Source: Spirochaetales bacterium (GTDB lineage: Bacteria > Spirochaetota > Spirochaetia > SZUA-6 > JAFGRV01). Taken from it: a stretch of 42,940 nucleotides of DNA. A program made the translations under genes and the position numbers. The stretch covers positions 1 to 42,940 of the forward strand of contig JAFGHO010000098.1 of assembly GCA_016930085.1 (NCBI GenBank), read 5' to 3'. This document shows positions 4,494 to 27,975 of this stretch, one piece after another (within the stretch, counting starts at the first letter, position 1; each line of letters opens with the position of its first letter). The notes under the pieces are model-generated. The model was not told where the DNA came from, did not search any database, and was given only the letters and a program-made list of their open reading frames with translations.

Positions 4494-6182
4494 CTAAACG
4501 GCGCCACGTTTTTTCAGCACGTCGACCAGCTGGTTCTTTGTAATGCCGAATCTGGCCGCCAGTTCGATGGCATAGCTTCTTCCTTTTGGTTGACCGGGAA
4601 GGATTTTAAAGGTCGGCCGTATACCGGGCTCTTCCCCGCCGCCTTTTGACGGTTCCGGGTCGCTTTCATACACGCCGGCCACCAGGCTGATCAGCGCGCT
4701 TTCCCCATCCGTATCCGCATTAATGTCATCCGTCATGGCGGCGAGTTGATGAAAATGTGTGGTAAAAATAACCCGTGTTCCGAGCATGCGGAATACCCGC
4801 ATGATATCCTGTGCAAGATAGATGCTTTCACCGGCGTTTGTGCTCGAAAGCGATTCATTGAGAAGGATGAGGGAGAACCGGGTGGCGGTGTCAAAGATTG
4901 TATGGAGTCGCCTCGCTTCTTCACCGAAACGACCCGTTCCGCGTGAGAGGGATTCTTTGACCGGGAAATGGGTCAATAGCTGATCGGTGATACTGATTTC
5001 CGCCCGCTGCGCGGGGACGTAGAGTCCGGCCTGCATGAGTACCTGTGACAGACCGACCGCCTGGGTAAACGTCGTTTTTCCTCCCCGGTTGGGCCCGGTG
5101 AGTATGACGATCCTCCCCGTCTCATTCATCTCGAAATCGTTGGGTACGATTCCTTCTATCGCCCCGCTTTGTTCCGAATCATCGCTTTTTTGTATGGCTA
5201 GATTTATATTATAGAGTCCTTCGTAATGGAGGGAGCGTGCTTCCTTTTTCAATACGCGCGGGCGTACCATCGGCAGTCCGTAACGTTCGAGTTTTTTGAT
5301 TCCTTTTACCGCCCCCAGAAAAAAAATGAATTCGTCATGAAGCCTGACAAGGAGACGGCTGTTGATGCTTATGAACTTTTTGAGCGATCTGGCCAGGGGG
5401 GCGGCCGCCTCTTCCATGATTTTTGCCACGTCTTTTATGACCGGATCGAGCAGGGGATCCGTCGTGCCTTCCGGGGCGGTATGAAGCGGCGCTATCCCCT
5501 GGGTACCGCCTGCCCCGAATATGCGCCGGTAGAGTGTTTTATCCGTATAGAGGTCCTTGTTTATCGAAAGCAATGTGACGCCGCAGGGGATGAGCCCCGC
5601 GTTCAGATTGACGCCTATGGTAATACTGCCGAGATTGTTTATCGTTGCAAGAAGTTCCGGCAGGACGGATAAAAGCCGCACGAAGACGGGATCCTCTTCT
5701 ATCTGCCCGATCAAGGCGGAAAATAATGTAAGTCCGCGGGATCGAATCAATGCTTCTCCGAATGCCTTTCCCAGCCGCCGGACACAGCGGGAATAGAACT
5801 CGAGTTCTCTCAGACGCCATACCACTTCCTGAAAAGGAGTTATCTCCCGGGCGCCGAAGTGGAGGGTGAAATAGGTAAGGGACCTGATATCGGGCAGAAT
5901 TTCCTCCCAGCAGCCGGCCAGATCCGGAGACCGTAAAAGATCCTCGAGGATATCGAGCCTGTAATTGAGGGTTTCCTCGTCATTGCAGACAACCGTATAC
6001 ATACTCTCGAGAGAATCCCTGCTTTTTCCCGTTTCGGTAAAAAACCGGATGAGCGCCGGGATGTCGAGATCCTCCACCGTCTCTTTTCGCAATGGTGTCG
6101 TTGATACTTTTCGGCCTTTTGGCCAGAGAAGACTGAAACCCAGATCCAGTCTGATATCTTCGTTATTTTTCTTTTCTTTCAT
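4494..6182 (-). CDS. MutS-family ATPase (MutS-related, lacks mismatch-recognition domain I)
   Basis: The C-terminal third of this 562-residue protein is a MutS domain V ABC-type ATPase. It has Walker A GPNRGGKTT, a Q/signature-like stretch SRGTGRFGEEARR, Walker B LILLNESLSST, and the FTTHFHQLA switch histidine region. Upstream are helical regions matching the MutS core/lever. The N-terminal mismatch-binding domain with its Phe-x-Glu motif is absent and the protein is shorter than MutS (about 850), so it should not be called mutS. The Walker B Asp is Asn (LLNE), which I recall from related MutS-like branches. AAGGA with an 8-base gap favours the ATG at 6182 over those at 6188 and 6200. The gene overlaps the upstream sigma gene by 20 bases, implying coupled translation. 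Its DNA substrate is unknown. Confidence 0.85.
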   Translation of the reverse strand: MKEKKNNEDIRLDLGFSLLWPKGRKVSTTPLRKETVEDLDIPALIRFFTETGKSRDSLESMYTVVCNDEETLNYRLDILEDLLRSPDLAGCWEEILPDIRSLTYFTLHFGAREITPFQEVVWRLRELEFYSRCVRRLGKAFGEALIRSRGLTLFSALIGQIEEDPVFVRLLSVLPELLATINNLGSITIGVNLNAGLIPCGVTLLSINKDLYTDKTLYRRIFGAGGTQGIAPLHTAPEGTTDPLLDPVIKDVAKIMEEAAAPLARSLKKFISINSRLLVRLHDEFIFFLGAVKGIKKLERYGLPMVRPRVLKKEARSLHYEGLYNINLAIQKSDDSEQSGAIEGIVPNDFEMNETGRIVILTGPNRGGKTTFTQAVGLSQVLMQAGLYVPAQRAEISITDQLLTHFPVKESLSRGTGRFGEEARRLHTIFDTATRFSLILLNESLSSTNAGESIYLAQDIMRVFRMLGTRVIFTTHFHQLAAMTDDINADTDGESALISLVAGVYESDPEPSKGGGEEPGIRPTFKILPGQPKGRSYAIELAARFGITKNQLVDVLKKRGAV

Positions 6183-7089
6183 CTTCATTTTCCTTTTCAA
6201 GTTTTCTCCCCTTCTCGAGGAGTAATTCCATGATCGCGCGGTAATTTCTATCCTTAGCCAATGCGAGGGCGTCTTTGCCGCTTCGATCTTTGATCCGGAT
6301 ATCCGCTCCGTTCTTCAGTAAAAGACCGACCGCTTCCGCATGATTGCTTTCAACAGCCCAATGGATGAGCGTTCTTCCTTTTGCGTCGATTTCATTGACA
6401 TCGATTCCATCGACGATCATCTGTTCGAGAATACTCTTCTGGCCGGATTTGGCGACGGCATCAAAGGTGGTATAAAGACTGATCTTTTCCAGCAGTGTAT
6501 TGTGACGGGAAGGCTTTATCTCATCCAGGTTATCCCTGATAAAGTGGAAGCACTCCTTTCGTAACGATTCCCTGGCGCGTTGCAGCCGCTTCTTTACCGT
6601 GTTGAGTTTGATGTTCAGGAAATCCGCAACCTCCTGCTGGGAATATCCGTCTATATAATAGAGGATTGTCGGTATCCGCTGGGTTTCCGGCAATTTTTCG
6701 ATCTCTTCCCGGATTTTTTCCTCCGTCTCTTTTTTTATGAGGGAGTGCGCCGGATCACTCCCTGCAGATTGATGATGTTCCATTGTATCCATCAAAACCT
6801 CCTTGCCCACCCGGTATTTTATTTTTTTTGCGGCTTCCCGTGATGCGATTTTACGAATCCAGCCGGGAAAAGCGGCATAGTTACGCAGGGTTTCGAGTTT
6901 TTTATAGCAGATGATAAAAACATCCTGGGTAATATCCTGGGCGAGTGCTGCGTCTTTCACCATACCAAAGACATACCCGAAAATAATATCCTGAAATCCG
7001 CCGACTATTTCCGTAAAGGCCTCCTGATGAGGGGAGCGGGCCGTTTTTTGTCGAATTGCATTTTCTATTAATTGTACGAGTGTTTCCAT
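6163..7089 (-). CDS. ECF-type RNA polymerase sigma factor with C-terminal ankyrin repeats
   Basis: Residues 1-100 hold a sigma region 2 (FQDIIFGYVFGMVKDAALAQ; DITQDVFIICYKKL). After a linker, region 4 (LPETQRIPTILYYIDGYSQQ; EVADFLNIKLNTVKKRLQRA) ends near residue 180. The remaining 120 residues contain ankyrin repeats (KGRTLIHWAVESNHAEAVGL; LLKNGADIRIKDRSGKDALA) and a charged Lys/Glu tail. The protein should direct RNA polymerase to its own regulon. The ankyrin part probably serves as a built-in protein-binding or anti-sigma-like sensor, since no separate anti-sigma gene is adjacent. The start at METLVQLIE is chosen by alignment with region 2; it lacks a clear ribosome site, and in-frame ATGs at 7134 and 7173 exist. 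Sigma identity is strong; the start is moderately sure. Confidence 0.88.
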   Translation of the reverse strand: METLVQLIENAIRQKTARSPHQEAFTEIVGGFQDIIFGYVFGMVKDAALAQDITQDVFIICYKKLETLRNYAAFPGWIRKIASREAAKKIKYRVGKEVLMDTMEHHQSAGSDPAHSLIKKETEEKIREEIEKLPETQRIPTILYYIDGYSQQEVADFLNIKLNTVKKRLQRARESLRKECFHFIRDNLDEIKPSRHNTLLEKISLYTTFDAVAKSGQKSILEQMIVDGIDVNEIDAKGRTLIHWAVESNHAEAVGLLLKNGADIRIKDRSGKDALALAKDRNYRAIMELLLEKGRKLEKENEDERKEK

Positions 7090-7194
7090 ATGCTTACAAT
7101 ATACAGGAGAACGGCCGGATGAAAAAGGTGACATTAATGGGTGAAATATACCTCTATATACCCTGCCGGCCACCCTACCCGTTATACATGATAC

Positions 7195-7221
7195 ATAATT
7201 TATGCATCATGCATGAATTAT
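7195..7221. promoter_or_regulatory. Near-perfect ATGCAT-rich palindrome between divergent genes
   Basis: Bases 7195-7221 read as ATAATT, T, ATGCAT, C, ATGCAT, G, AATTAT: a palindrome with one mismatched pair. Another TATGCAT copy follows at 7220-7226. It lies between the divergent sigma and DAG-kinase-like genes and could be an operator serving one or both. No binding protein can be named. Confidence 0.45.
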
Positions 7222-7291
7222 GCATATTGCATAGCCGGAAAGCGGCTCCGTCCCCGTGATGATTTGACGCTTGTCCTTATCCTGTAATGAA

Positions 7292-7320
7292 TTAAGAGAG
7301 ATTTAGTGAGATGGTATGAT
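7292..7320 (+). promoter_or_regulatory. Possible promoter of the DAG-kinase operon
   Basis: A good -10 box TATGAT lies at 7315-7320. Seventeen bases upstream is only a weak -35, TTAAGA. An alternative -35, TTGACG at 7264-7269, has no convincing -10 at the right distance. The start would fall about 20 bases before the gene, just upstream of the G8 run. Confidence 0.35.
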
Positions 7321-7346
7321 TTTTGCATTTATTTGGGGGGGGTATT

Positions 7347-8489
7347 ATGACGACGGCAATGAAAGAGAAAAAATCTTCGGTGCGCAGTGTAAGCGGAAAC
7401 GGCGGTATGCCGTCAATCCTTTTCATCATCAATGAAGCGGCCGGAACAGGACGTACACCGGATGATATCGCGTGTCTGGTTTCCTTTGCTGTCTCCCAAT
7501 GCGGATCCGCTTCGACAATCCGTGTTGAAGAAACCGATAATCATGAAACGGTGACGAAAATCACCGAAGCTTTTCTGCAAAGAAAGGGCGGCCGCAAAAT
7601 TATCATTGCGGGGGGAGGGGGAGGGACATTACGGGCCGTCATCACCGGTATTTATAATACACGGGAAAAGCGGGGGGACACACAGGATCCCCCTGTTGTC
7701 GCCGCTTTGAGAATGGGTTCGGGTAATGTGCTGGCGAAGACACTGGGCATCGAAAAAGATCCGTACAAAGGCCTGCAGCAAATATTCGAGGGCATCAGGT
7801 ACAATCAGATCAGAAAGGTATGTGTCGGCAGGTTCGATTTTACGGATCGGGATTTTCTGCGGCGCACGATTTTCGGTGTCACCCTCATGGGATTCGGCGC
7901 GTTTGGAGGTATTCCCGGCGCGATCGGCAGGTTTCATAAACGTCACCCCTTCATACACCGGCTGCTCGCGGGCATTGTCGGGATCGAATCCCTCACACCG
8001 GTCGAATACGGCGTTCTGCTTGGCGTACGATCGGCGGCCGGATTGTTCTTTCCCGATCGTCCGGCGAAGATCGGAATCGGTTACAACGGAAAAACCGTTA
8101 TCAAGCGGATTATCGCCGGGCTGATTATGAACTTTCCCGTTTCCTCGATTCCTTTGGATCCGGGTATCGTCATAAGCGACGAGGCCCTTTATTTCCATGC
8201 CGTTCCCTACCATTACCGGCTGGATCTTCTCGAACTTGTCGGAAAGCCGCAGCACCTGCCGTCGATTTCCTTTTCCGTCACAAGGGAGTGCGGGGTCGAT
8301 ATAAATTTTCATCCTGAAATGAAAAACAAAAGGTGTATGAAAAAAAGATCCGTAAAACCGGCAGAGATTTTTATCGACGAAGATCCGTATTTTGTCCGGG
8401 GTGCCTTGCATGTTTCGGTTGCCGGAATGATCGAATTCATTAATGCATCACCCCTGAGGACACGGAGTGATAAGGAGGTTATGCGATGA
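7347..8489 (+). CDS. Diacylglycerol kinase / lipid kinase catalytic-fold protein with altered nucleotide loop
   Basis: The N-terminal half of this 380-residue protein follows the DAGK_cat fold. FIINEAAGTGR (family NPxSG region) comes first, then IIIAGGGGGTLRAV where most relatives have GGDGTxxEV, then ALRMGSGNVLAKTLGI matching the PxGTGNDxA loop. The second half is a beta-sandwich-like region with about 80 extra residues compared with DgkB or YegS (about 300). Known relatives transfer ATP phosphate to diacylglycerol, sphingoid or similar lipids at the membrane. The Asp of GGDGT is replaced by Gly, so the activity may differ or be lost. The start at 7347 follows a run of eight G that would serve as the ribosome site; an earlier in-frame ATG at 7323 has none. 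The next gene overlaps its stop codon by 4 bases. Confidence 0.8.
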   Translation: MTTAMKEKKSSVRSVSGNGGMPSILFIINEAAGTGRTPDDIACLVSFAVSQCGSASTIRVEETDNHETVTKITEAFLQRKGGRKIIIAGGGGGTLRAVITGIYNTREKRGDTQDPPVVAALRMGSGNVLAKTLGIEKDPYKGLQQIFEGIRYNQIRKVCVGRFDFTDRDFLRRTIFGVTLMGFGAFGGIPGAIGRFHKRHPFIHRLLAGIVGIESLTPVEYGVLLGVRSAAGLFFPDRPAKIGIGYNGKTVIKRIIAGLIMNFPVSSIPLDPGIVISDEALYFHAVPYHYRLDLLELVGKPQHLPSISFSVTRECGVDINFHPEMKNKRCMKKRSVKPAEIFIDEDPYFVRGALHVSVAGMIEFINASPLRTRSDKEVMR

Positions 8490-10273
8490 GTATTCATGTT
8501 TGCATTCTGGGAATAGACGGAAGCGGTAAAAGTACCATTTCGGCGAGCCTTCCGGCATTGCTTTCGGCCGCCCTGGGTGTGCCCGTCGCGTCCGCCGGAG
8601 AAAAATTTCGGATGACCACGCCGACGGAAGATCATCTGGGGCCCGGTTTTCAGCCAGAACGGCTTCCCCTCGAGTTTCATCTTTCCCGTTTTTTTAAACG
8701 AAAAGCGAAAAAAAACGTTGAAAACAGAAGATTATATCAGGTATTCAAGGTCGCCCATATGCTTTTCCAGGATGCCTCGGCAAAAAAACTGGAAAAGCGA
8801 TACGAGCCAGCGATTGTGGTCAGTGACGGCAACGCGATTCTGTCCGCCTGCGGCAGGGAGGTGAATTACAGGAAAACACCGGGGAGCCGCACGCCGGAAC
8901 CGGCCGAGCTTGCCCGATTATTCGGGTATGTTCTTGACGGCAGGATTCCGGATCCCCGGACTATCGGCCGGATGCCGAAAGCCGTGGCGATCAAAAAACT
9001 CAAAAGGATTTGTGATGCCTGCGGGATCAAAGGGTTCTGGCTTCCGGACATTGTTTTTTTCCTTGATGTGAGGCCATCTTCCGCCATGAAGAGGATCGCG
9101 GCGCGCGGAAGAAAAATCGACGGGCATGAAAACGAAAAGGATCTCAATCAGGCGCGTGAAATGTACCTGAAAACACTCGAGGCATTTTCAATCTACCGTC
9201 CGGAAGCTCTGGTAGAAATCATTCGGACGGACGGTTCAACCCCCGGTGAGGTGTTGCGGAAAATCGTTGGGCGCATGAAAGCCGGGATCAGGGCAAAAAC
9301 CGTGGCACTGCAGGGATCCTCCGCACCGCTGGGAAAGTCGGAAGACAATATCGAAGATAAAAGCTTCTGGTCCAAAATACTGAACAGGAAATATATCTTC
9401 AATTACCTCTGCGCGAAGTGTTTTGACGGGGCGTGGCGTGAACCCTTTTTTGTCTGTTCACCCCACGGAAGGGTTTTCCTCAAGGAGGGGTATTCGGCGA
9501 ATGTGATGAAGATCATCTATGAGAATACAGACACGGAAAAGAACCCGTTCAACAGAATTTTTTTAGGTTACCCCCTGAACAGGGCGGTGTATGACAGGCT
9601 CGAGATGCTGGTCGGCTGGCTGTACTGGGTGTTACGGGAAAAACTTGTACCGGGGAAAGAGGTAACCGTTTTCTCCGCTCCATGCGGATTCGCCTATGAT
9701 ATGCTGGGTGCACTGAACCGATTGAAGAAAGAGTCCCCCCGCCTTTTACAACGGGTAAGATTTGTCGCGTCCGACCTCGATCCGTACGGTGACATAGAAC
9801 CGGCTTTGGCGGCAAAGGCGAGGGAACTCGACATCACCTTCGATTTTATCAAAGGCGATATACGAAAAGCGGCCGTCAGGAAACTCATCCGGTCGTTCGG
9901 CCCCTTCGATATCGAATTGTTTATCGGTCTGTCCGGATGGCTTCCCAAACCGGCCATTGTCGGTCATATGCGGTTTCTCGTGACGGCGATAAAACCGGAC
10001 GGGGTCTGTCTGACCGATACCTTTACCGCCGCCGCATATTCGTTTTCCGGCTATTATGCCGGTTTCAGGGGGAATTATTACGAGCCCGAAATATACAGGG
10101 CGATGCTCGATTACGCCGGATTCAATGGGCAGTATGCGACCGTTGAATCGGGAAGGGACGGGATTAATCACTTGATCGTGGTACGTCCAAGGCGGAAACG
10201 CAGCTTCGCCGTATCCGGTTATGAAACGGCTACATACGGCCGTATAAAAAACAATGAACGGGCCGTTTGTTAG
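8486..10273 (+). CDS. Fusion of thymidylate-kinase-like P-loop kinase and SAM-dependent methyltransferase
   Basis: Residues 1-265 resemble thymidylate kinases. Walker A GIDGSGKST is at 9-17, VVSDGNAILS near 111-120, and a hydrophobic strand FFLDVRPSSAMKRIAARGRK with a LID-like Arg-rich segment near 191-210. After a linker, residues 300-575 form a class I methyltransferase: motif I VTVFSAPCGFAYD at 393-405, an acidic strand end ASDLDPYG at 428-435, then KGDIR, and a late strand AIKPDGVCLTDTFT. The kinase would phosphorylate a nucleotide, sugar or lipid-like alcohol, and the second domain would methylate the same or a linked product. The ATG overlaps the previous stop as ATGA, and the glpD-like gene follows 14 bases later, so the three are surely co-transcribed. 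I know no characterised protein with this domain order. The substrate is unknown. Confidence 0.75.
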   Translation: MSIHVCILGIDGSGKSTISASLPALLSAALGVPVASAGEKFRMTTPTEDHLGPGFQPERLPLEFHLSRFFKRKAKKNVENRRLYQVFKVAHMLFQDASAKKLEKRYEPAIVVSDGNAILSACGREVNYRKTPGSRTPEPAELARLFGYVLDGRIPDPRTIGRMPKAVAIKKLKRICDACGIKGFWLPDIVFFLDVRPSSAMKRIAARGRKIDGHENEKDLNQAREMYLKTLEAFSIYRPEALVEIIRTDGSTPGEVLRKIVGRMKAGIRAKTVALQGSSAPLGKSEDNIEDKSFWSKILNRKYIFNYLCAKCFDGAWREPFFVCSPHGRVFLKEGYSANVMKIIYENTDTEKNPFNRIFLGYPLNRAVYDRLEMLVGWLYWVLREKLVPGKEVTVFSAPCGFAYDMLGALNRLKKESPRLLQRVRFVASDLDPYGDIEPALAAKARELDITFDFIKGDIRKAAVRKLIRSFGPFDIELFIGLSGWLPKPAIVGHMRFLVTAIKPDGVCLTDTFTAAAYSFSGYYAGFRGNYYEPEIYRAMLDYAGFNGQYATVESGRDGINHLIVVRPRRKRSFAVSGYETATYGRIKNNERAVC

Positions 10274-10287
10274 GAGGCGGAAGCACA

Positions 10288-12006
10288 ATGATTAAGGAAA
10301 CGCCGAATAAAACAATACGTTCACAGCTTGCCGGGAGACTGGACAGTAAGACCTTCGACCTCCTTGTTATCGGGGGCGGCATTACGGGTGCGAGTATTTT
10401 CAGGGACGCGGTCCTTCGCGGGCTGAAAACGGCCCTCTTGGATGCCGGGGATTATGCTTCCGGAACGTCGAGTAAAAGCTCGAAATTGTTCCACGGCGGT
10501 CTTCGCTATATCACATCAGGAGATTTCAGACTGACAAAGGAAGCATGCGGTGAACGGAACCTTGCGGTGAATCTCAATCACCGGCTGGTAAAGCCGATAC
10601 CGTTCATGATCCCCGTATACGGGAAGCGCCGTCGGCGCCTCGCCTTCGGGGCTTTGCTTCACGCATACGATTTTCTTTCGGGATACGGCAATTACGACAA
10701 CCACCGGTTCCTGCCGCCCGAAGAAACACTCAGGATGGCCCCCGGGCTTTCGCGTTCCGGGCTTCTGGGAAGTTACATCTACTACGATGCACTCGTTTCC
10801 GATTTCCGGTACACCCTGGAAACGATCAAGGACGGGATATATAACGGGGGGTGCGCATGCAACTACACGAAAGTGACCGGCTTCGTGAAATCCGAAGGGA
10901 AAATATGCGGGGTTTCCATTCTCGATACCGTAGGCGGAACGGCCCGTCATGTGCGGGCCCGTTCGGTGGTGAACGCGACCGGCGCGTTCACCGATGTTAT
11001 CCGCCGCCTCGATGACGGCGACTGCACGCCGGCGATCAAGCTGTCCCGTGGAACACACCTTGTTTTCGACAGGGGGGACATCCCCTTTCATATGACCGTC
11101 ACCTTTTTTTCGCCGATCGACGGCAGGGTGCTTTTTCTCATCAGTCATGAGGATTGTTTCTTATACGGCACCACCGATACATGGTATTCGGGCGATCCGG
11201 CGGCCTCGGTCCCTGAGGAATGCGATGTCGATTACCTGCTTGCATCGATCAACCTCGGCTTCCCCGGCATCGGGCTGTCAAAAGAAAAGGTCCGTTATGC
11301 CTACAGCGGTTTCAGACCCCTGGTTATGAGAAAGAATACGGGGACCAGCCCATCAGGTACGAGCAGGGAAGACCACTACGAGGTATCGGCATCGGGACTC
11401 ATTACCGTGACGGGCGGAAAGCTTTCGACCGCCAGGCTGATGGCGGATAAAACACTCGCCATCGTGTACAAAGGGCTTGAGAAAAAGGCACCGCCGTGCC
11501 GTACCCACATGTCTCCGATCGGCGGCGATATACCGGACTATCCCGAAAACGTCGTGAAATGGGTAAACGGCCATCCGTACCACGCGCGCGACATACGTTC
11601 CATGTGCCGGGATTACGGTGCATCGTTCGTCGATTTCTTTGAAGCGTATCTCGGGGGTATTTCCGGAAGCACCTGTCATGATCCGGAAATCGTCAGATTG
11701 CGCTATATCTGCAGGAATGAAATGGCCGTGAATCTCGAAGACATCATTGAAAGAAGAATCGGCGCCATTGATTGGGATGCCGGGGAAAGGGAAGGTTACC
11801 TGCAAAAATACAGGGTCGTTCTGTCAAGGGAATTGTCGCTTTCGAACGACGAGTTCTTCGACCAATATGAGGCGTACAGGCACTATCTCGCTTCACATCA
11901 TTATCCGGGATCATATTCGGACAAACCCGTTTCATCTTCAACGCGATATCGCATGTTGCACAGGCGGGAATTAATACACCGTAGCGCTAATGCTTATTCC
12001 GCATGA
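10288..12006 (+). CDS. glpD: FAD-dependent glycerol-3-phosphate dehydrogenase (GlpD/GlpA family)
   Basis: The 572-residue protein has the dinucleotide-binding motif LLVIGGGITGASIFRDA at 25-41. It also has the family signature SSKSSKLFHGGLRYI, which contacts FAD and substrate, and TVTGGKLSTARLMAD closing the FAD site. A C-terminal helical domain typical of GlpD follows. The family oxidises sn-glycerol-3-phosphate to dihydroxyacetone phosphate at the inner face of the membrane and passes electrons to quinone. TAGGAGG upstream of the ATG at 10288 decides the start. No glycerol kinase or facilitator is next to it. Instead it closes the DAG-kinase-like / kinase-methyltransferase unit, so it may work on a lipid-derived glycerophosphate. 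Its 3' end overlaps the convergent gene on the minus strand by 36 bases. Confidence 0.9.
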   Translation: MIKETPNKTIRSQLAGRLDSKTFDLLVIGGGITGASIFRDAVLRGLKTALLDAGDYASGTSSKSSKLFHGGLRYITSGDFRLTKEACGERNLAVNLNHRLVKPIPFMIPVYGKRRRRLAFGALLHAYDFLSGYGNYDNHRFLPPEETLRMAPGLSRSGLLGSYIYYDALVSDFRYTLETIKDGIYNGGCACNYTKVTGFVKSEGKICGVSILDTVGGTARHVRARSVVNATGAFTDVIRRLDDGDCTPAIKLSRGTHLVFDRGDIPFHMTVTFFSPIDGRVLFLISHEDCFLYGTTDTWYSGDPAASVPEECDVDYLLASINLGFPGIGLSKEKVRYAYSGFRPLVMRKNTGTSPSGTSREDHYEVSASGLITVTGGKLSTARLMADKTLAIVYKGLEKKAPPCRTHMSPIGGDIPDYPENVVKWVNGHPYHARDIRSMCRDYGASFVDFFEAYLGGISGSTCHDPEIVRLRYICRNEMAVNLEDIIERRIGAIDWDAGEREGYLQKYRVVLSRELSLSNDEFFDQYEAYRHYLASHHYPGSYSDKPVSSSTRYRMLHRRELIHRSANAYSA

Positions 12007-12669
12007 AACAGCATAACCCGGGGGAGAATTGGGGTGTGGAACGACAAGCGTCGTGCAGGTAAACAACCATGAGAAATGGGATTCGAATTCATAACCTATT
12101 CCCATTCGCGCCCCGGCGCCGCCGACACCGGGCACTTTCGCATACCCCGCATCGTATAATTCTTTCGTGACGAAAAGGTACATACCGATTCCGCCCGATA
12201 TGAACCATGAAGGGGCGGAGGGTTCAAGATACCAGACTGCCTCGACACCGGAGAAAATCTGGCTTCCCGCTATGATTAAAAACGGGAAAAGCGGCCAGGC
12301 AAGCGCCATCCATTCATCCAGACTGAAAAACCATTCGTATCCCTCGGTAATGGCATCAATATCCGTGGGGGCGATCACACACAGGAGACCGATATTCAGC
12401 ATATTATTGATTCCGTACCCCAGTTTTACTTCAATAGGAAGAGAGATATATGGTTTCAATATTGATGTATCGTTTTCGGAGGGATCTTCATATACAAGAA
12501 GGGCCCCGCCGACTCCGATACCGAATCCGACCGTCCATCCTTCCCGTTCACCGGCGTACGAAAAAGAGGTACAACAGCATAACCTGAAGAATACCCCCAG
12601 AAAGATAACGATGCGGCAAAGCCGGCGGACCGGGCTTGACTTTCTTTGATATTCTTCACGTTCTGCCAT
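11971..12669 (-). CDS. Conserved-looking outer-membrane/secreted protein of unknown function
   Basis: I do not recognise this 232-residue protein. A basic N-terminus (residues 1-16) is followed by a hydrophobic stretch to about residue 40 ending in YAGERE, which fits a signal peptide. The rest alternates short Gly- and aromatic-rich strands (GWTVGFGIGVGGALLVYE; WFISGGIGMYLFV) and ends VSCGISISATVY, as in small outer-membrane beta-barrels. A clear AAGGAG site lies before the ATG at 12669. It follows the U32 gene by only 12 bases on the same strand, so the two form an operon. Its 3' end overlaps the glpD gene, which runs the other way. Confidence 0.6.
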   Translation of the reverse strand: MAEREEYQRKSSPVRRLCRIVIFLGVFFRLCCCTSFSYAGEREGWTVGFGIGVGGALLVYEDPSENDTSILKPYISLPIEVKLGYGINNMLNIGLLCVIAPTDIDAITEGYEWFFSLDEWMALAWPLFPFLIIAGSQIFSGVEAVWYLEPSAPSWFISGGIGMYLFVTKELYDAGYAKVPGVGGAGARMGIGYEFESHFSWLFTCTTLVVPHPNSPPGYAVSCGISISATVY

Positions 12670-12681
12670 AATTTTTTCTCC

Positions 12682-13923
12682 TTATTTTGTATGGGGTGCG
12701 GTGACACGCTTATCCTGCGGGGAGTTCTCATCTTCGCTTTTTTTCCTTACAATATATCCCTCTTTGACCGCTTTTCCCGTCCGGATAAAAAAAGGTTTTC
12801 CATGATCGGCTTTTGCGACTTCATTTTTTTCCTCATCATACAGGATGAACGAGTCGTCTTCGATATAGAGGATGTCGGGGCCGATGTATTCGAGTGTGTC
12901 CCCTTTCAGAATACTGTTTTTTGCCTTTAGTTCGAAAAAGCCCGGTGTTACCTCTTTCCCGATACAGCCCAAATAGGAATACGGCCTGATATATGAGGTG
13001 CGTGCCGGGGTTTCGATCTCGTTTCTGCCAAAGTAAAAACCGGTTGAAAACTCGCGACGGCTAACCTTGAAGAGTTCTTCCCTGTAACGGTGGAGATCGG
13101 AGGTGCCGTTGCCGGATAACTCATCGAGGGCTTTCCGGTAAGCCCTGGTTGTGACGGCCGTGTAATAGAGGGATTTCATCCGTCCTTCGATTTTTATCGC
13201 ATCGATCCCGGCTTCTTTTATGGATTTCAGATGATCGATCATGCAGATATCCTTTGAAGAAAGAATGGTGGTATGGCCGTCGGCTTCACAGACGGGAAAG
13301 TATTCCCCCGGCCGTTCGGCTTCCTCGAGCAGCATATAGCTCCACCTGCACGAATGCGCGCAGTCTCCGCTGTTCGCGGAACGGCCGGCCATGTACGCGC
13401 TCAGAAAACACCTGCCCGCGTACGCCAGGCACATCGCACCGTGAACAAAGACTTCGAGTTCGCAGCCGCACCGTTTTCTGATCTCACCGATTTCCCGGAG
13501 GCTGAGTTCGCGTCCAAGGATGATTCGCGAAAATCCCATGTCGCAATAAAGGCGGGCGGATTCCGAATTGATACAATTCGCCTGTGTGCTCAAATGAAGC
13601 GGGGTGCGGGGAAAGTGTTTCTTGAGGACGGGAAGGACGCCGATATCGCTTACGATAAAGGCGTCGAACGGATATTGCCCGATATAATCGAGTGACGCTT
13701 CGAGCCTCCCGATGTCCTTCTCGTGAAAATAGATATTCAGGGCGCAGAAGAGTTTTTTGCCTGGTCCTTTCATGAGCCCGATCGCCTCATATTCGCTTCC
13801 GGAAAAGTTGTCAGCCTTTGCCCTGAGGGAAAAATCCCTTATGCCGATATAGACGGCATCGGCGCCGTATTGATAGGCGCATATCAGTTTTTCGAGGTTG
13901 CCCGCGGGCGCCACAAGTTCCAT
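12682..13923 (-). CDS. U32 family peptidase-like protein (TrhP/YegQ type)
   Basis: The N-terminus MELVAPAGNLEKLICAYQYG and ADAVYIG is the hallmark of the U32 family. HLSTQANCIN and EVFVHGAMCLAYAGRC follow. Four cysteines at residues 165, 172, 188 and 192 match those that bind an iron-sulfur cluster in members needed for tRNA or 23S rRNA hydroxylation (TrhP, RlhA). At 413 residues it is closest in size to TrhP-type proteins, whose role is prephenate-dependent 5-hydroxyuridine formation in tRNA. An actual protease activity is less likely. There is no strong ribosome site. A TATAAT box at 13938-13933 lies 9 bases before the ATG, with TTGTTC 17 bases further up, so the mRNA may have almost no leader. 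It is divergent from dtd. Confidence 0.88.
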   Translation of the reverse strand: MELVAPAGNLEKLICAYQYGADAVYIGIRDFSLRAKADNFSGSEYEAIGLMKGPGKKLFCALNIYFHEKDIGRLEASLDYIGQYPFDAFIVSDIGVLPVLKKHFPRTPLHLSTQANCINSESARLYCDMGFSRIILGRELSLREIGEIRKRCGCELEVFVHGAMCLAYAGRCFLSAYMAGRSANSGDCAHSCRWSYMLLEEAERPGEYFPVCEADGHTTILSSKDICMIDHLKSIKEAGIDAIKIEGRMKSLYYTAVTTRAYRKALDELSGNGTSDLHRYREELFKVSRREFSTGFYFGRNEIETPARTSYIRPYSYLGCIGKEVTPGFFELKAKNSILKGDTLEYIGPDILYIEDDSFILYDEEKNEVAKADHGKPFFIRTGKAVKEGYIVRKKSEDENSPQDKRVTAPHTK

Positions 13924-13975
13924 GATTCATCCATTATAAAAAGAATTTCAAAAGGGAACAAGGCCGAAAAAATAC

Positions 13976-14005
13976 CTGACACGGAAGGCCCTCATGGTGT
14001 ATAGT
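13976..14005 (+). promoter_or_regulatory. Promoter placing the start of transcription on the dtd ATG
   Basis: CTGACA at 13976-13981 and TATAGT at 14000-14005 are 18 bases apart. Six bases separate the -10 box from the ATG at 14012, so the mRNA would be leaderless, which agrees with the lack of a ribosome site before that ATG. Confidence 0.5.
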
Positions 14006-14011
14006 ACGCCC

Positions 14012-14464
14012 ATGAGAGCGGTCGTACAGCGGGTGAAGGAAGCATCGGTTACCATCGGCGGAAAGGTCTCGGGTTCGATCGACAAGGGACTCCTGATTCT
14101 ATTGGGGATCGAAGACGCGGATACGGATGACGATATCGCGTGGCTTGCCGGCAAAATCGCGCGTCTGCGGATCTTTCCGGACGGCAATGGTATCATGAAC
14201 CGTTCCGTGACGGAGGCGGGCGGGGACATCCTTGCCGTAAGCCAGTTCACCCTTCACGCGAGCATCAAAAAAGGAAACAGGCCGTATTACGGAAGATCGG
14301 CACTCCCCGAAAAGGCGGTCCCGTTGTATCATGCTTTTATCAAGAAGCTCGAAGATGAAACCGGAAAGACAATCCGGACGGGGGAGTTCGGTGCGATGAT
14401 GGATGTCGGTCTTATTAATGACGGTCCGGTAACCATTATCATGGATTCAAAGCGTATCGAATAG
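14012..14464 (+). CDS. dtd: D-aminoacyl-tRNA deacylase
   Basis: Dtd removes D-amino acids (and mischarged glycine) from tRNA in the cytoplasm as a homodimer. The 150-residue sequence shows the expected start MRAVVQRVKEASVTI and the catalytic-site motif SQFTLHAS. Near the C-terminus it shows NDGPVTI, matching the family's Gly-cis-Pro hairpin that enforces chirality. The start at 14012 is preferred because it gives the standard N-terminus. An in-frame ATG at 13994 has a GGAAGG five bases upstream and would add six residues. The YjbQ-family gene follows 34 bases later on the same strand. Confidence 0.95.
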   Translation: MRAVVQRVKEASVTIGGKVSGSIDKGLLILLGIEDADTDDDIAWLAGKIARLRIFPDGNGIMNRSVTEAGGDILAVSQFTLHASIKKGNRPYYGRSALPEKAVPLYHAFIKKLEDETGKTIRTGEFGAMMDVGLINDGPVTIIMDSKRIE

Positions 14465-14498
14465 GGCCCTTGTGTCTCAGAAAAAACAGGAGAGTACC

Positions 14499-14915
14499 AT
14501 GGTTTACGGAAAGGAAGTATCGTTTCAGACAAAAGGTTTTTCGGATATAAAGGACGTCACGCACCAGGTGCAGGACATCGTCGGTGATTCAGGTATCGCG
14601 GAGGGGATCGTGACAATATCGGTCATCGGTTCCACCGCTTCGGTTTCGACGGTGGAGTATGAACCGGCCCTTGTTGCGGATGTGAAGGAGCAGCTTGAAC
14701 GGCTCGTTCCGCATACCATCCATTCGCGCCATTCGGCCACGTGGGGGGACGATAACGGTTTTTCACATATCCGGGCAACGCTCATGGGGCCTTCCGTTAC
14801 GCTGCCCGTAGCCGGGAAAAGAATCGTTCTGGGGACATGGCAGCAGATTATCGTGATCGACCACGACAACAGGCCGCGGACGAGGAGGATATTCGTCAGA
14901 GTGATGGGCGAATAG
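14499..14915 (+). CDS. YjbQ / UPF0047 family protein (secondary thiamine-phosphate synthase type)
   Basis: This 138-residue protein fits the YjbQ family throughout. It shows a VTISVIGSTASVSTVEYEP strand pair, and the HSRHSATWGDDNGFSHIRAT segment whose His and Asp residues group in the putative active site. It ends in GTWQQIIVIDHDNRPRTR. Members can weakly replace ThiE (thiamine-phosphate synthase), but the true cellular role of the family is unsettled. GGAG with a 7-base gap places the start at 14499; an in-frame ATG at 14472 would add nine polar residues. It is likely co-transcribed with dtd. The next gene is convergent, 24 bases away. Confidence 0.9.
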   Translation: MVYGKEVSFQTKGFSDIKDVTHQVQDIVGDSGIAEGIVTISVIGSTASVSTVEYEPALVADVKEQLERLVPHTIHSRHSATWGDDNGFSHIRATLMGPSVTLPVAGKRIVLGTWQQIIVIDHDNRPRTRRIFVRVMGE

Positions 14916-14939
14916 GATACTAATGGCGGCAGGCGCGTG

Positions 14940-15746
14940 TCAGCCGTTTCTCTGTTTTCGTTTTTCCCTGAAGAATGCCGCGTTGTCGTTGTAGAAACGG
15001 AGAAAATAATGCTGACTGTTCGAGAAAAACTCGCCTATCATAAGGCAGGCCGGTCCGCCGATGTACCGGTAATGCCACGGTTCGTAGATATAACCGGTAA
15101 TCTCTTCACGGCCTTCCGGATAGGAAAGCGAGAAGCCGTAGTGCGGGGCATGTCGTGTCAGCCACGCCGATGCCGGTGTTCCTGCAAACTCGGGCCCGAT
15201 CGGTTCGAAATCGATCGTCGTTCCCAGCTGATGTTGTGAATGGCCCGGCTCGGCCGATTCCCTCTGCGCCCGTTCCTTTCCCAATACCCTGATCCAGTGC
15301 CGGTGTACTTGTTCCTGGTAAGCGTATGAGCGGTAGGCCGATGCGATGGTCAGCACCGCGCCGTCCCCTGCTGCATCGTCACTCATCCTGATGAGGTTGT
15401 CGATCGCGATCTTTCGAAGCCTCAATCCCGGTTTTGCCGCGGAAATGGAATATTCCACCACGGAAACAAGATCCGCTGGTTCATAATCCGGGGGCAGTGA
15501 ATGTGTTTTATCCACGAGAAGCATCAACTCCTGCGGTTCATCCAGAATCACGGCCATAAGTTCGCAGAAACGAACGGGCCGGCCGCGAATCGCCTCCCCG
15601 ATTTCAGCGGGCAAATCCTTTGTCGTTTCTTCGATATCGCTTCGTGTCAGATTGAATTCCGGATGCAGTGTGCTTCCGCCGCACCCGGCGCACATACAAA
15701 GCGCAACGAATACCACCGGCCATGTGAAAAAAGCGGGGAAATACAT
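14940..15746 (-). CDS. VanY-type D-alanyl-D-alanine carboxypeptidase lipoprotein (LAS family)
   Basis: A short signal peptide ends in the lipobox CAGC (Cys22), so the protein is probably a lipoprotein facing the periplasm. The catalytic part has the LAS-family zinc motif GHSQHQLGTTIDFEP (SxHxxGxxxD) and the second ligand region EPWHYRYIG. Both are characteristic of DD-carboxypeptidases that trim the terminal D-Ala of peptidoglycan stem peptides. A preceding YRSYAYQEQVHRHW stretch is also typical. Residues 40-110 carry no recognised domain. Its ATG lies one base past the lon stop codon (TGA-C-ATG), so translation is probably coupled to lon. An operon of Lon and a wall-trimming enzyme is not one I recall as conserved. 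Confidence 0.9.
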   Translation of the reverse strand: MYFPAFFTWPVVFVALCMCAGCGGSTLHPEFNLTRSDIEETTKDLPAEIGEAIRGRPVRFCELMAVILDEPQELMLLVDKTHSLPPDYEPADLVSVVEYSISAAKPGLRLRKIAIDNLIRMSDDAAGDGAVLTIASAYRSYAYQEQVHRHWIRVLGKERAQRESAEPGHSQHQLGTTIDFEPIGPEFAGTPASAWLTRHAPHYGFSLSYPEGREEITGYIYEPWHYRYIGGPACLMIGEFFSNSQHYFLRFYNDNAAFFREKRKQRNG

Positions 15747-15747
15747 G

Positions 15748-18087
15748 TCAGAAAAGCCTTTCGATCACCTCTTCCATTGTTTTCACGGGATGGAAGGTGA
15801 TTCCCTTTTTCACGTTTTCAGGTATCTCGTCGAGGTCTTTCAGGTTTTCATAGGGGATGATAATTTCCTTTATTTTATTCCTTTTTGCCGCGATCGTCTT
15901 TTCCTTGAGTCCGCCGATCGGAAGAACGCGGCCGACTAAGGAAAGTTCACCGGTCATGGCGAGCCTGCTTTTTATTTTTTTATCCCTGATGAGCGAAAGA
16001 AGACATGAGGCCATGGTAATACCGGCGGAAGGCCCGTCTTTCGGCGTCGCACCCGCGGGTATGTGGAGGTGGATCCGGTGTTCCTCGAAGAATTCTTTTG
16101 AAACGCCGAAGCGTTCGGATATCTGCCGGATAAAGGTGTAGGCGATATTCGCGGATTCCTGCATCACATCACCCATCTGGCCCGTCAGTTTGAAACCCTC
16201 TTTGCCCTTGTTGGCGACCGCCTCGATAATGAGGGTGGCTCCGCCGAGAGCCGTCCAGGCAAGGCCGACGGCCATGCCCGGTTTTGTCACCTCGATCGAT
16301 TCGTGTTCGTCGAACGGCGGTTGTTTCAGGTACGTGACGAGATCGTTTTCATCAATGACGACGGGAAGTTTGATTTTATCGAGTACGGAAAGTTTGGCGA
16401 TTTTCCGGTGGATCTTGTCGAGTTGTTTTTCGTACAGACGCAAGCCCGCCTCACGCGCGTACCCTTCCGCTATGGCGAAAAGCGTTTTTTTATCGTAGAC
16501 GACGTCCTTTTTGCCGAGGCCGCTTCGTTCGAGAGATTTCGGAATGAGGTATTTCCGTGCGATCATCACCTTTTCTTCATTGATATAGCCTGAAAGCCTG
16601 ATTATCTCCATTCTGTCCCTGAGCGGCGACGGGATGGTATCGAGGGTGTTTGCCGTCGTAATAAAGAGGATATGGGAGACATCAAAGGGAAGATCGAGGT
16701 AATGGTCCCTGAATGCGACATTCTGTTCGGGATCGAGGACTTCGAGGAGCGCCGATGAGGGGTCGCCCTGGAACGAAACACCGAGTTTGTCTATCTCGTC
16801 GATCATGAACACCGGATCGAGTGTTTTTACGATTTTGAGTCCCTGTATGATTTTGCCGGGCATGGCGCCGACATATGTCCGGCGGTGTCCCTTGATCTCG
16901 GCTTCGTCCCGCATACCGCCCACGGAAAACCTGAAGAACTTTTTCCCGAGAGCGCGCGCGATGGATTTTCCGACGGACGTTTTTCCCACCCCCGGCGGTC
17001 CGACGAGGCAGAGGATCGAACCTTTTGTGTCGTTTTTCAGGATTCCGATCGCGATATATTCGAGAATCCGGTCTTTCACGTCATCGAGTCCGTAGTGATC
17101 GGCGTCTAGAATTTTTTTCGCCCTGCTCATATCGATCTTTGCCTGTTTCGGTTCGTTCCACGGGAGGGAGACGATCGTTTCGAGGTAATTTCTCGTAACG
17201 ACGAACTCAGATGAATTGGGATCCATGAGGGCGAACTTTTCCAGCTCGCTTTCAACCTGATCTTTTACCTCACCCTTGAACTTCAGCTTTTCGATGAGTT
17301 CCTTCAGTCTCGCGTACTCCTGGGTTTTTGCATCGACCGGCATACCGAGTTCGGATTTTATGGCTTTCAGTTCCTCCTTGAGAAAATATTCCCGTTGACT
17401 CTTCGTAATTTTTTCTTCGATCTGGCCCTGAATTTTCTTTTGTATTTTGAGGAGTTCCTGCTCCTTTTTTATGAAGACTAAAACGCTTTCCATTCGTTTA
17501 CGGACGTCGAAGGTCTCGAGAATTTTCTGTTGTTCCTTGCGGTCGATATTCAGGATGGAGGTGATAAAATCGGCGATTTTCCCGGGATGATCGATATTCA
17601 CCATGTTCAGCCGCATTTCCTCCGAAAAGAGGGGATTGTTTTCCGATATCTGTTTCATTTCCGAAAGAAGCGCCCTTGTCAGCGCCTTGACTTCGACAGA
17701 ATCGGCGAGTTCCTCATTCCCATATTCCACGGCGGCGGTAATCGGGACGGTGGTATTGATGAATTTCTTGACGGTAAATCGTTTGAGTGTCGTCACGAAA
17801 ATGTTCATACCACCGTCCGGGAGGTTCAACCGCTTGATTATTTTTGCGGCCGTTCCGACGCGGTACAGATCGCCGCTTTCCGGGTGTTCCTCATCGGGCG
17901 ATTTGATGAGAACAAAACCCAGAATCTGATGGGCTGAAAACGAGGCATTGACGACCTCGATATCCTCCTGATCGTGAAGAACAAGCGGTGTGATGAGTCC
18001 GGGAAAGATCGGCTGACCTTTCAGGGGAAGAATATGCAGTTTATTCGGCAATACTAAATCCGCCGGAATGATTTGCCCATTTGACAT
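15748..18087 (-). CDS. lon: ATP-dependent protease Lon
   Basis: This 779-residue protein has all parts of bacterial LonA. An N-terminal substrate-binding LON domain (about 1-210) and a coiled-coil region (QEQQKILETFDVRKRM onward) come first. The AAA+ module with Walker A GPPGVGKTS follows. The C-terminal protease domain carries the catalytic Ser687 in KDGPSAG and Lys730 in GGLKEK. It degrades misfolded and regulatory proteins in the cytoplasm. Length is usual (about 780-820). A GAGG ribosome site with an 8-base gap precedes the ATG. No CIRCE or other heat-shock operator is visible; the promoter has ordinary sigma-70-like boxes. The VanY-like gene follows with a one-base gap. Confidence 0.97.
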   Translation of the reverse strand: MSNGQIIPADLVLPNKLHILPLKGQPIFPGLITPLVLHDQEDIEVVNASFSAHQILGFVLIKSPDEEHPESGDLYRVGTAAKIIKRLNLPDGGMNIFVTTLKRFTVKKFINTTVPITAAVEYGNEELADSVEVKALTRALLSEMKQISENNPLFSEEMRLNMVNIDHPGKIADFITSILNIDRKEQQKILETFDVRKRMESVLVFIKKEQELLKIQKKIQGQIEEKITKSQREYFLKEELKAIKSELGMPVDAKTQEYARLKELIEKLKFKGEVKDQVESELEKFALMDPNSSEFVVTRNYLETIVSLPWNEPKQAKIDMSRAKKILDADHYGLDDVKDRILEYIAIGILKNDTKGSILCLVGPPGVGKTSVGKSIARALGKKFFRFSVGGMRDEAEIKGHRRTYVGAMPGKIIQGLKIVKTLDPVFMIDEIDKLGVSFQGDPSSALLEVLDPEQNVAFRDHYLDLPFDVSHILFITTANTLDTIPSPLRDRMEIIRLSGYINEEKVMIARKYLIPKSLERSGLGKKDVVYDKKTLFAIAEGYAREAGLRLYEKQLDKIHRKIAKLSVLDKIKLPVVIDENDLVTYLKQPPFDEHESIEVTKPGMAVGLAWTALGGATLIIEAVANKGKEGFKLTGQMGDVMQESANIAYTFIRQISERFGVSKEFFEEHRIHLHIPAGATPKDGPSAGITMASCLLSLIRDKKIKSRLAMTGELSLVGRVLPIGGLKEKTIAAKRNKIKEIIIPYENLKDLDEIPENVKKGITFHPVKTMEEVIERLF

Positions 18088-26224: not shown

Positions 26225-27814
26225 TCAGCACAGCTGCGTAATGATACCCACGTAATAACGGGCGACCTGAAGCGCGTCCGTGATATTGATGTTCCCGTCG
26301 CAATTGGCGTCCGCCAGGGAGGCGTTGAACGGCGAGGGGTTCAATCCCACGTAATACTGCGCGATGAGAAGGGCGTCCGCGATCGTGACCCTGTCGTCCC
26401 CATTGACGTCCCCGGTCGTTCCCGGTGAGGACCCGCCGCCCGCCGAAAAGGTCGTGACGCTGTTTGCCGCAAGCGTCGCGCTGAATGTCCCGTTCGAGAC
26501 CGATATCGCCGGCGACTGCGCGAGATCGCTGCTCGAGGATGTCACGTAGGGGGTGACGGAACCCGCGGAATACCCGTTCAGATGGAAACTCCTCGACTGG
26601 GAACTCCCGCTTTCATTGATCGCGACAATTGCGAATTCGTTTGTCTGTGTGTTCTTGAATGCCGTCACCAGGACGCCGTTCGAGGAGGCCGTCGACGTCG
26701 ACAACCGGTACCATCCCGGCCTGACGAACCTGCTGTAATTGCCCATGGTATAGAGGCGTTTGTTGGTAAACCAGCTGTTATTCTGGGTATTGATGTTGAT
26801 CAATGCCTCCCCCTTCGCGGGATTGACTTTGTAACAGATCGTCCACCAGTAGCACCACGAGTTGCCCTCGGCGTTGGTGAGGAAATCGTGTATCTGTTTG
26901 GCCCACTTCATCCCGTCCGTCATGGAGGCGTCGTTGTCATTGAGGTTCGATACCTCTGTCTCCCACACCCGTTTGTTCTTGCTTTTCGCGTTCGTAAAGT
27001 CATTGTAATTCGAATTGTTGTAGTTGTGGGCCGCGACGATATCGAGGTACCCGGCCGCGGTCGAATCGTTCAATGTCGCCCGCGCGGGTTCTTCCGTCCA
27101 GTTGGAATCCTCGCCTATGATTATTTTTGTTGCGATCGAGTGTTCGTCCCTGAATTTGGGGCCGAGATTGTCCCTGACAAATGTTCTGAATTGTTCTCCG
27201 GTCCATCTGCATGACGAGTAGCTCGTTCCCAGATTCGGTTCATTGGCGACGGAGATGGCGTAAATGTCGATGCCGTTTCTGTTTTTCATGTATTCGGTCA
27301 CGTACTGGTAAAGGTATTCCGCGTAATCGTCATACATGCTCGTCAGGACCGACCCGCCGTTGATACAGCTGTTGTTGTCCTTCATCCACCGGGGCGGGCT
27401 CCAGACCGTACTGTAGAATATGGTGCATCCCCGCTTTTTCGCCTCCTGCATGAACCAGATCTGTTCGTCGACGGCGTTGAAATTCCACGTGCCCTGCTGG
27501 GGTTCTATGGTCTCGATGGGGCCGTCGATATCGTTTCCCCATTCGCTCATGCTCCCGTCACCGACCATGTTCCGAACCATCGAAAGCCCGATGCCCGAGG
27601 TCTGTGAGAAGAGAAGATCGAGAATCTCGTTTCGGGCCGCTTCGGGAAACTTTTTCAGGTTGTCCGCCTGTTTGAACGCGGCTGACGCGCCGAAACCGTC
27701 GATTTCCTGTCTTGCCTCGTCCCAGTATATCTCGATTGTCTGAGAAAAGGCCTGGCAGGATAGAAACAGGAAGAAAAATACGACCGTCCATACGATCAAA
27801 AACCTTCTGTTCAT
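26225..27814 (-). CDS. Secreted GH30 family glycoside hydrolase (glucuronoxylanase-like) with C-terminal dockerin
   Basis: A signal peptide covers about the first 26 residues. The catalytic barrel begins IDGFGASAAF. It contains the acid/base Glu in SVANEPN (about residue 192) and the nucleophile Glu in VWETEVSN (about 287), as in GH30 enzymes of the XynC/subfamily 8 type that cut glucuronoxylan. A beta-sandwich side domain (GWYRLSTSTASSNGVLVTAF onward) follows. After a Gly/Ser/Pro linker there is a dockerin type I domain of two calcium-binding repeats (GDVNGDDRVTIADALLIAQY; ADANCDGNINITDALQVARY). Dockerins bind cohesins, but no cohesin protein is visible here. The ATG at 27814, not 27817, has the better gap from AAGGAG. 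Substrate could also be another xylan or a glucan. Confidence 0.9.
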   Translation of the reverse strand: MNRRFLIVWTVVFFFLFLSCQAFSQTIEIYWDEARQEIDGFGASAAFKQADNLKKFPEAARNEILDLLFSQTSGIGLSMVRNMVGDGSMSEWGNDIDGPIETIEPQQGTWNFNAVDEQIWFMQEAKKRGCTIFYSTVWSPPRWMKDNNSCINGGSVLTSMYDDYAEYLYQYVTEYMKNRNGIDIYAISVANEPNLGTSYSSCRWTGEQFRTFVRDNLGPKFRDEHSIATKIIIGEDSNWTEEPARATLNDSTAAGYLDIVAAHNYNNSNYNDFTNAKSKNKRVWETEVSNLNDNDASMTDGMKWAKQIHDFLTNAEGNSWCYWWTICYKVNPAKGEALININTQNNSWFTNKRLYTMGNYSRFVRPGWYRLSTSTASSNGVLVTAFKNTQTNEFAIVAINESGSSQSRSFHLNGYSAGSVTPYVTSSSSDLAQSPAISVSNGTFSATLAANSVTTFSAGGGSSPGTTGDVNGDDRVTIADALLIAQYYVGLNPSPFNASLADANCDGNINITDALQVARYYVGIITQLC

Positions 27815-27975
27815 CATTTTCTCCTTTTATATCATTGCATTTTATTTTATATTCAGGTCCATTCTACATTACTGCGGGGAATAAATCAAGATTTTTTTAA
27901 TGCCAGGCCGTTTTCGACGGCTTCGTCATCAATTGATACGGGTAATGAAAAGCGGATATGGTAAAGACAGGGCGG

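Follow-up and report, generated by a model that had tools for sequence, protein, structure and literature searches.

Lipid kinases of the YegS/DgkB type are recognized by an N-terminal match to the catalytic-domain profile, a GGDGT motif (AGGGDGT/AAGGDGT in YegS and DgkB), a second motif of the GxGN type, and DGE or DGD at the expected place. The Asp of GGDGT belongs to the nucleotide/metal site of this kinase superfamily. Proteins of the thymidylate kinase/deoxynucleoside kinase family (PF02223, PF01712) carry a P-loop and an FFLDV...AMKRI.ARG pattern in the LID region. Methyltransferases of the Methyltransf_20/YnbC type (E. coli ynbC) are class I enzymes, in YnbC fused to a hydrolase, and their genes in proteobacteria and cyanobacteria are found in clusters with CDP-alcohol phosphatidyltransferase, CdsA, PlsC and PAP2. 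GlpD and the type 1 glycerol-3-phosphate oxidase share a substrate site to which, in E. coli GlpD, we take R54, Y55, R317, R332 and K354 to contribute.

Relatives of these proteins are encoded by three adjacent genes in the window, which is the whole stretch of 42,940 nucleotides analyzed here from a Spirochaetales bacterium (contig JAFGHO010000098.1). Gene 1 possesses the N-terminal profile match and the second motif (GSGN) of YegS/DgkB-type kinases, with a DED at the place of DGE/DGD; unlike them, it has Gly for the Asp of GGDGT and no match to YegS_C. The N-terminal half of gene 2 shares the P-loop and the LID-region pattern with the thymidylate kinases and departs from them by DGN for DRY, a long insertion and a sub-cut-off NCBIfam score. 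Its C-terminal half aligns collinearly with Methyltransf_20/YnbC, including the segment before motif I, at a similarity no higher than that of a control methyltransferase; in contrast to YnbC it is fused to a kinase, and the PF12147 (Methyltransf_20) profile had no match either in this half or in the whole genome. Gene 3 is related to GlpD and the oxidase over its full length and keeps the substrate-site residues, whereas its sub-equivalog NCBIfam scores and its operon context set it apart from known GlpD. The whole is best explained by a lineage-restricted, probably RpoN-controlled operon for glycerolipid or glycerophosphate metabolism, a reading to which we give a probability of roughly 45%.

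Gene organization and distribution of the trio

The sequence-only reading had proposed three open reading frames in a single operon, and the layout was borne out in full (Table 1). The start of gene 2 sits within the stop of gene 1 in an ATGA overlap and is preceded by AAGGAGG, and the ATG of gene 3 follows the TAG of gene 2 after a spacing of 14 bases, behind a good ribosome site. Gene 1 begins with an ATG, and an alternative start lies at 7359. The trio is flanked by genes of the opposite strand, to the left by one for a sigma factor with ankyrin repeats and one with a MutS domain and to the right by two reverse-strand genes, and is thus a self-contained transcription unit. No transporter gene lies within it. 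A search for sigma-70 promoters and terminators gave nothing convincing. The divergent gene to the left (6163-7173, minus strand) encodes an ECF-type sigma factor fused to C-terminal ankyrin repeats and overlaps the MutS domain V gene.

Table 1. Positions of the trio, its protein domains and its predicted control elements in the window.
Feature	Position	Strand	Description	Basis or remark
Gene 1	7347-8489	+	380 aa, DAGK_cat/YegS-fold protein	Pfam match, motif reading
Gene 2	8486-10273	+	595 aa, fusion of TMK-like P-loop kinase domain and class I methyltransferase domain	
Kinase-like domain of gene 2	8486-9295	+	P-loop GIDGSGKS intact; LID-like region ARGRKIDGHEN	DRY replaced by DGN
Methyltransferase domain of gene 2	9482-10195	+	Residues 333-570	Motif I VFSAPCGFAYDML; acidic strand-2 residue ASDLD
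Gene 3	10288-12006	+	572 aa, GlpD-type FAD glycerol-3-phosphate dehydrogenase	
Possible ribosome site of gene 1	7335-7342	+	G-rich stretch	Read directly from the sequence
Ribosome-binding site of gene 3	10272-10277	+	AGGAGG	
Predicted sigma-54 promoter	7312-7327	+	TGGTATGATTTTTGCA (GG-N10-GC)	Expected 0.02 per window
Putative activator palindrome	7219-7233	.	TATGCATATTGCATA	Exact
Putative activator (enhancer) palindrome	7201-7215	.	TATGCATCATGCATG	1 mismatch to TATGCANNNTGCATA; expected 0.06 per window at ≤1 mismatch
Weak third palindrome copy	7183-7197	.	TATACATGATACATA	2 mismatches; 18 bp before the next copy

The trio was found in the same order in one other genome, Spirochaetales bacterium Zod_Metabat.855, which belongs to the same family and a different genus. 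Identities between the two genomes are 41% for the DGK-like protein, 56-58% for the fusion and 53% for GlpD. In Zod_Metabat.855 the genes are split over two contig ends, the DGK-like gene with the first half of the fusion on one and the second half with glpD on the other; the linkage there is inferred, since the contig break falls within the fusion gene, and the halves match. Its immediate neighbours are non-homologous to those in the source genome, one flank being PolC-like and the other made up of different genes.

The fusion is present in two of the 61 nearest genomes, namely these two, and the source genome was the only carrier of the trio in a sample of 393 genomes of the phylum. Neither another fusion nor another close relative of the DGK-like protein was found among the 393 phylum and 248 class genomes, and the fusion was not found in the plasmid and viral collections. 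A pattern search of GTDB data, with patterns taken solely from where the methyltransferase half begins, so that a distant relative could be missed, matched one named genome contig (Zod_Metabat.855). The trio is a lineage-restricted and rarely shared operon. The operon claimed from sequence alone is seen as an operon-like unit with its order kept in a second genome, and conserved adjacency among spirochaetes holds within one family and is not widespread.

Predicted sigma-54 control and other genes behind the same signature

The 16-mer of the predicted promoter also precedes the trio in Zod_Metabat.855, at the equivalent place. The two upstream regions have this word in common, compared with a shuffle maximum of 11 for shared words. 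The TGG-N10-GC element with the TGGYAYGNNNNTTGCW consensus is exact in both genomes, with a chance expectation of about 0.01-0.02 per sequence. Two copies of a palindrome of the type TATGCA-N3-TGCATA are found upstream, both exact in Zod_Metabat.855, and the centre of the nearer one is about 100 bp (source) or about 101 bp (Zod_Metabat.855) from the -12 element. In the source genome an ORF carries the RpoN box (ARRTVAKYR), and several activators of the NtrC type are encoded. The predicted promoter and the upstream palindromes indicate that the trio is probably under sigma-54 (RpoN) control.

The palindrome motif, defined at the trio, served for an out-of-sample scan of this genome, covering 1,161,806 bases. 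Twin palindromes occur at just two other places in the scanned 1.16 Mb, C104:26747/26765 and C100:11957/11976, with a sigma-54-like element (1 mismatch) about 146 bp and 97 bp, respectively, from the nearer palindrome; the background of such elements is 11 per 764 kb. The operon behind the C104 site (L092, G000 C104:20001-40000, positions 6957-16251) includes genes for a UbiA prenyltransferase-like protein, an FMN oxidoreductase, a BioF/serine-palmitoyltransferase-like protein and a lipid kinase with GGDGT. It also encodes a ThiL-like protein, a FabF-like ketosynthase, an epimerase-type SDR reductase and a radical SAM protein. None of the six C104 proteins tested reaches an NCBIfam equivalog cut-off. 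The predicted gene set is lipid- or polyketide-like and looks biosynthetic. The C100 target (L116, G000 C100:1-20000, positions 9005-11990, minus strand) encodes a large membrane protein and, after it, a protein of the HD-GYP type; it does not obviously point to lipids, and the regulon may serve a general response.

The C100 operon, as a third co-regulated unit, and the rarity of the trio among relatives would both fit a loose regulon, in which RpoN co-expresses genes for different processes such as nucleotide-like phosphorylation, RNA or protein methylation and oxidation of glycerol 3-phosphate (G3P). This we regard as improbable in view of the tight spacing and overlap of the three genes, their order kept across two genera despite different surroundings, and the position of two DAGK-fold genes, gene 1 and the one at C104, behind this same control element. 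The lipid reading gains independent, though indirect, support, because the same promoter architecture precedes the lipid-type cluster C104.

Properties of the encoded proteins

Gene 1 matches Pfam DAGK_cat above the cut-off (E=1.1e-13; 51.3 bits against a gathering score of 23.6), and a profile search of solved structures with it returned none below E=0.001. Its GGDGT motif reads GGGGT (AGGGGGT) in both the source genome and Zod_Metabat.855, with the expected Asp changed to Gly. The motif is intact in all five other DAGK_cat proteins inspected, one of them the second lipid kinase of this genome and the remaining four from other spirochaetes. Standard DAG kinase activity of gene 1 is doubtful because this nucleotide/metal-site residue is absent, and the product appears to be an atypical protein of the lipid-kinase fold. 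The fold named in the sequence-only reading was retained, and the label of a DAG kinase is doubtful.

The N-terminal domain of gene 2 matches Pfam Thymidylate_kin above the cut-off (E=1.1e-9), and its P-loop aligns to GIDGSGKSS of 2plr. The NCBIfam dTMP kinase model gives 36.5 bits, far under the cut-off of 83.25. The DGN at the likely DRY position, also present in Zod_Metabat.855, was placed by eye against the genome's own thymidylate kinase, and the HHalign alignment does not settle this stretch. A defence-system reading was tried and rejected, as it yielded just weak P-loop matches (best VakA, E=6e-7).

Pfam and NCBIfam searches with the methyltransferase half of gene 2 gave no significant match. 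An AlphaFold model of this half, built from three aligned sequences, has a mean pLDDT of 51.5, with about 60-87 in the SAM-binding core, and displays the alternating strand/helix order of class I methyltransferases and a glycine-rich motif I; a whole-length model of the fusion (pLDDT 36) was not used. A Foldseek search with the model of the half listed 556 PDB chains at E<=0.001; methyltransferases lead this list, with a best E of 2.5e-8 and a probability of 1.00 to many methyltransferases at TM 0.4-0.55. The C-terminal half is, on a model of moderate quality, a class I SAM methyltransferase fold. The middle protein is thus a kinase-like/methyltransferase fusion, as first read from the sequence, by its Thymidylate_kin match and by the modelled class I fold.

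For its METHYLTRANSFERASE affinity, the closest leads are Methyltransf_20/YnbC and two spirochaete proteins (L072/L073), which we take to resemble PhcB. HHalign of the gene 2 half with Methyltransf_20 gave E=3.4e-4 and a probability of 38% over 176 collinear columns, whereas a control, the ordinary methyltransferase L056 of the same genome, reached E=1.5e-4. The assignment to Methyltransf_20 was not secured because the control scores equally. A GY/GF..IYxN segment before motif I is common to gene 2, the two PhcB-like-looking proteins and YnbC-type methyltransferases, except that the YnbC-type L038 does not fit; this pattern was picked after inspecting the sequences, and GY..IYxN has a single match among the genome's ordinary methyltransferases, at a different chain position. 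At L074 (G001 C218, 9012-12577), and also at L072 (own genome, C82), a gene for a class I methyltransferase with a weak Methyltransf_20 match has directly behind it one for a membrane histidine kinase with receiver domains, a layout reminiscent of phcB-phcS quorum sensing.

These features raise the alternative of a signalling unit, in which the DGK-like protein would act as a lipid-sensing pseudokinase and the methyltransferase would make a diffusible methylated lipid signal in the manner of PhcB. The PhcB product is methyl 3-hydroxy fatty acids (3-hydroxy fatty-acid methyl esters) (PMC8578825). The Asp-to-Gly change in both genomes, against GGDGT kept in the five other DAGK_cat matches, is consistent with such a unit, and so is the GY..IYxN segment shared with two PhcB-like-looking proteins, one of them directly followed by a sensor histidine kinase. 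We consider it quite unlikely: the weak profile similarity is equalled by an ordinary methyltransferase of the genome, the PhcB likeness of L072/L073 is putative, and GlpD has no obvious place in it.

Gene 3 matches Pfam DAO above the cut-off (E=1e-42), and its alignment with chains of known structure from GlpD and glycerophosphate oxidase reaches E=4e-78. It stays under the NCBIfam equivalog cut-offs, with 245.8 against 840 bits and 238.7 against 360 bits. With its FAD-binding domain and all the checked site residues kept, it looks like a true FAD glycerol-3-phosphate dehydrogenase, in agreement with its earlier identification.

Canonical relatives of the trio are encoded elsewhere in the same genome: a thymidylate kinase (C76), a lipid kinase with GGDGT (C104), a glycerol kinase (C34, 720 bits, above the NCBIfam cut-off), and a GlpA-type dehydrogenase with a second oxidoreductase (C57). 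The trio is therefore not a housekeeping set. The candidates of a housekeeping thymidylate kinase or DAG kinase were rejected on these copies and on the differing key motifs, and the kinase domain is unlikely to be a missing glycerol kinase given the C34 gene. Ahead of the two C57 genes, a 588-aa ORF (L020, G000 C57:34000-39000, positions 444-2210) has a phosphopantetheine adenylyltransferase-like start followed by a dephospho-CoA-kinase-like part, as read by eye.

GlpD alone could serve carbon or energy use. It is the best-understood member of the trio, its family is catabolic, and RpoN control is often nutritional. A salvage or catabolic operon would follow if the kinase domain phosphorylated a glycerol-like alcohol and GlpD led to DHAP, with the methyltransferase and the DGK-like protein as accessory or detoxifying parts and no new lipid. 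This is unlikely in a genome that already possesses the C34 glycerol kinase and the C57 dehydrogenase and oxidoreductase, and it sits poorly with the lack of a transporter gene in the trio and with the biosynthetic look of the co-regulated C104 cluster.

Proposed role in glycerolipid metabolism

A lipid role remains the best-supported reading of the trio, based on GlpD, the lipid-kinase fold and the regulation shared with a lipid-type cluster. The lipid interpretation given to the operon from sequence alone is supported in part: it is strengthened indirectly by the promoter architecture common to the trio and C104, and the naming of gene 1 as a DAG kinase is doubtful. The carriage of the trio by only two genomes and the C100 target, not obviously related to lipids, count against a lipid pathway. 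The shared signature suggests, short of proof, an undescribed lipid pathway.

In the proposed mechanism, an NtrC-type activator would bind the palindromes and turn on the trio together with the C104 cluster. At the membrane, GlpD would convert G3P by oxidation into DHAP. The DGK-like protein, other than a standard DAG kinase, might bind a lipid or glycerophosphate as a non-canonical kinase or a scaffold, and the fusion would phosphorylate and methylate a lipid-linked or small alcohol substrate to yield a modified lipid or headgroup. A bolder version, which we hold to be rather unlikely, takes the trio and C104 as one RpoN-controlled pathway to an undescribed phosphorylated and methylated lipid or lipid signal, in which the fusion would be a bifunctional enzyme of a new kind and the GGGGT protein would represent a new functional class within the lipid-kinase fold.

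If the proposed role is true, this spirochaete turns on an alternative lipid pathway via an RpoN regulon whose signature, twin TATGCA-N3-TGCATA sites and a -24/-12 promoter, is recognizable in the sequence. That signature would provide a direct route to the other genes of the pathway and to its activator. The kinase-methyltransferase fusion is not described by the family libraries searched here. Elsewhere in the window, a gene on the minus strand (26225-27817) encodes a GH30-type glycosyl hydrolase with a dockerin domain.
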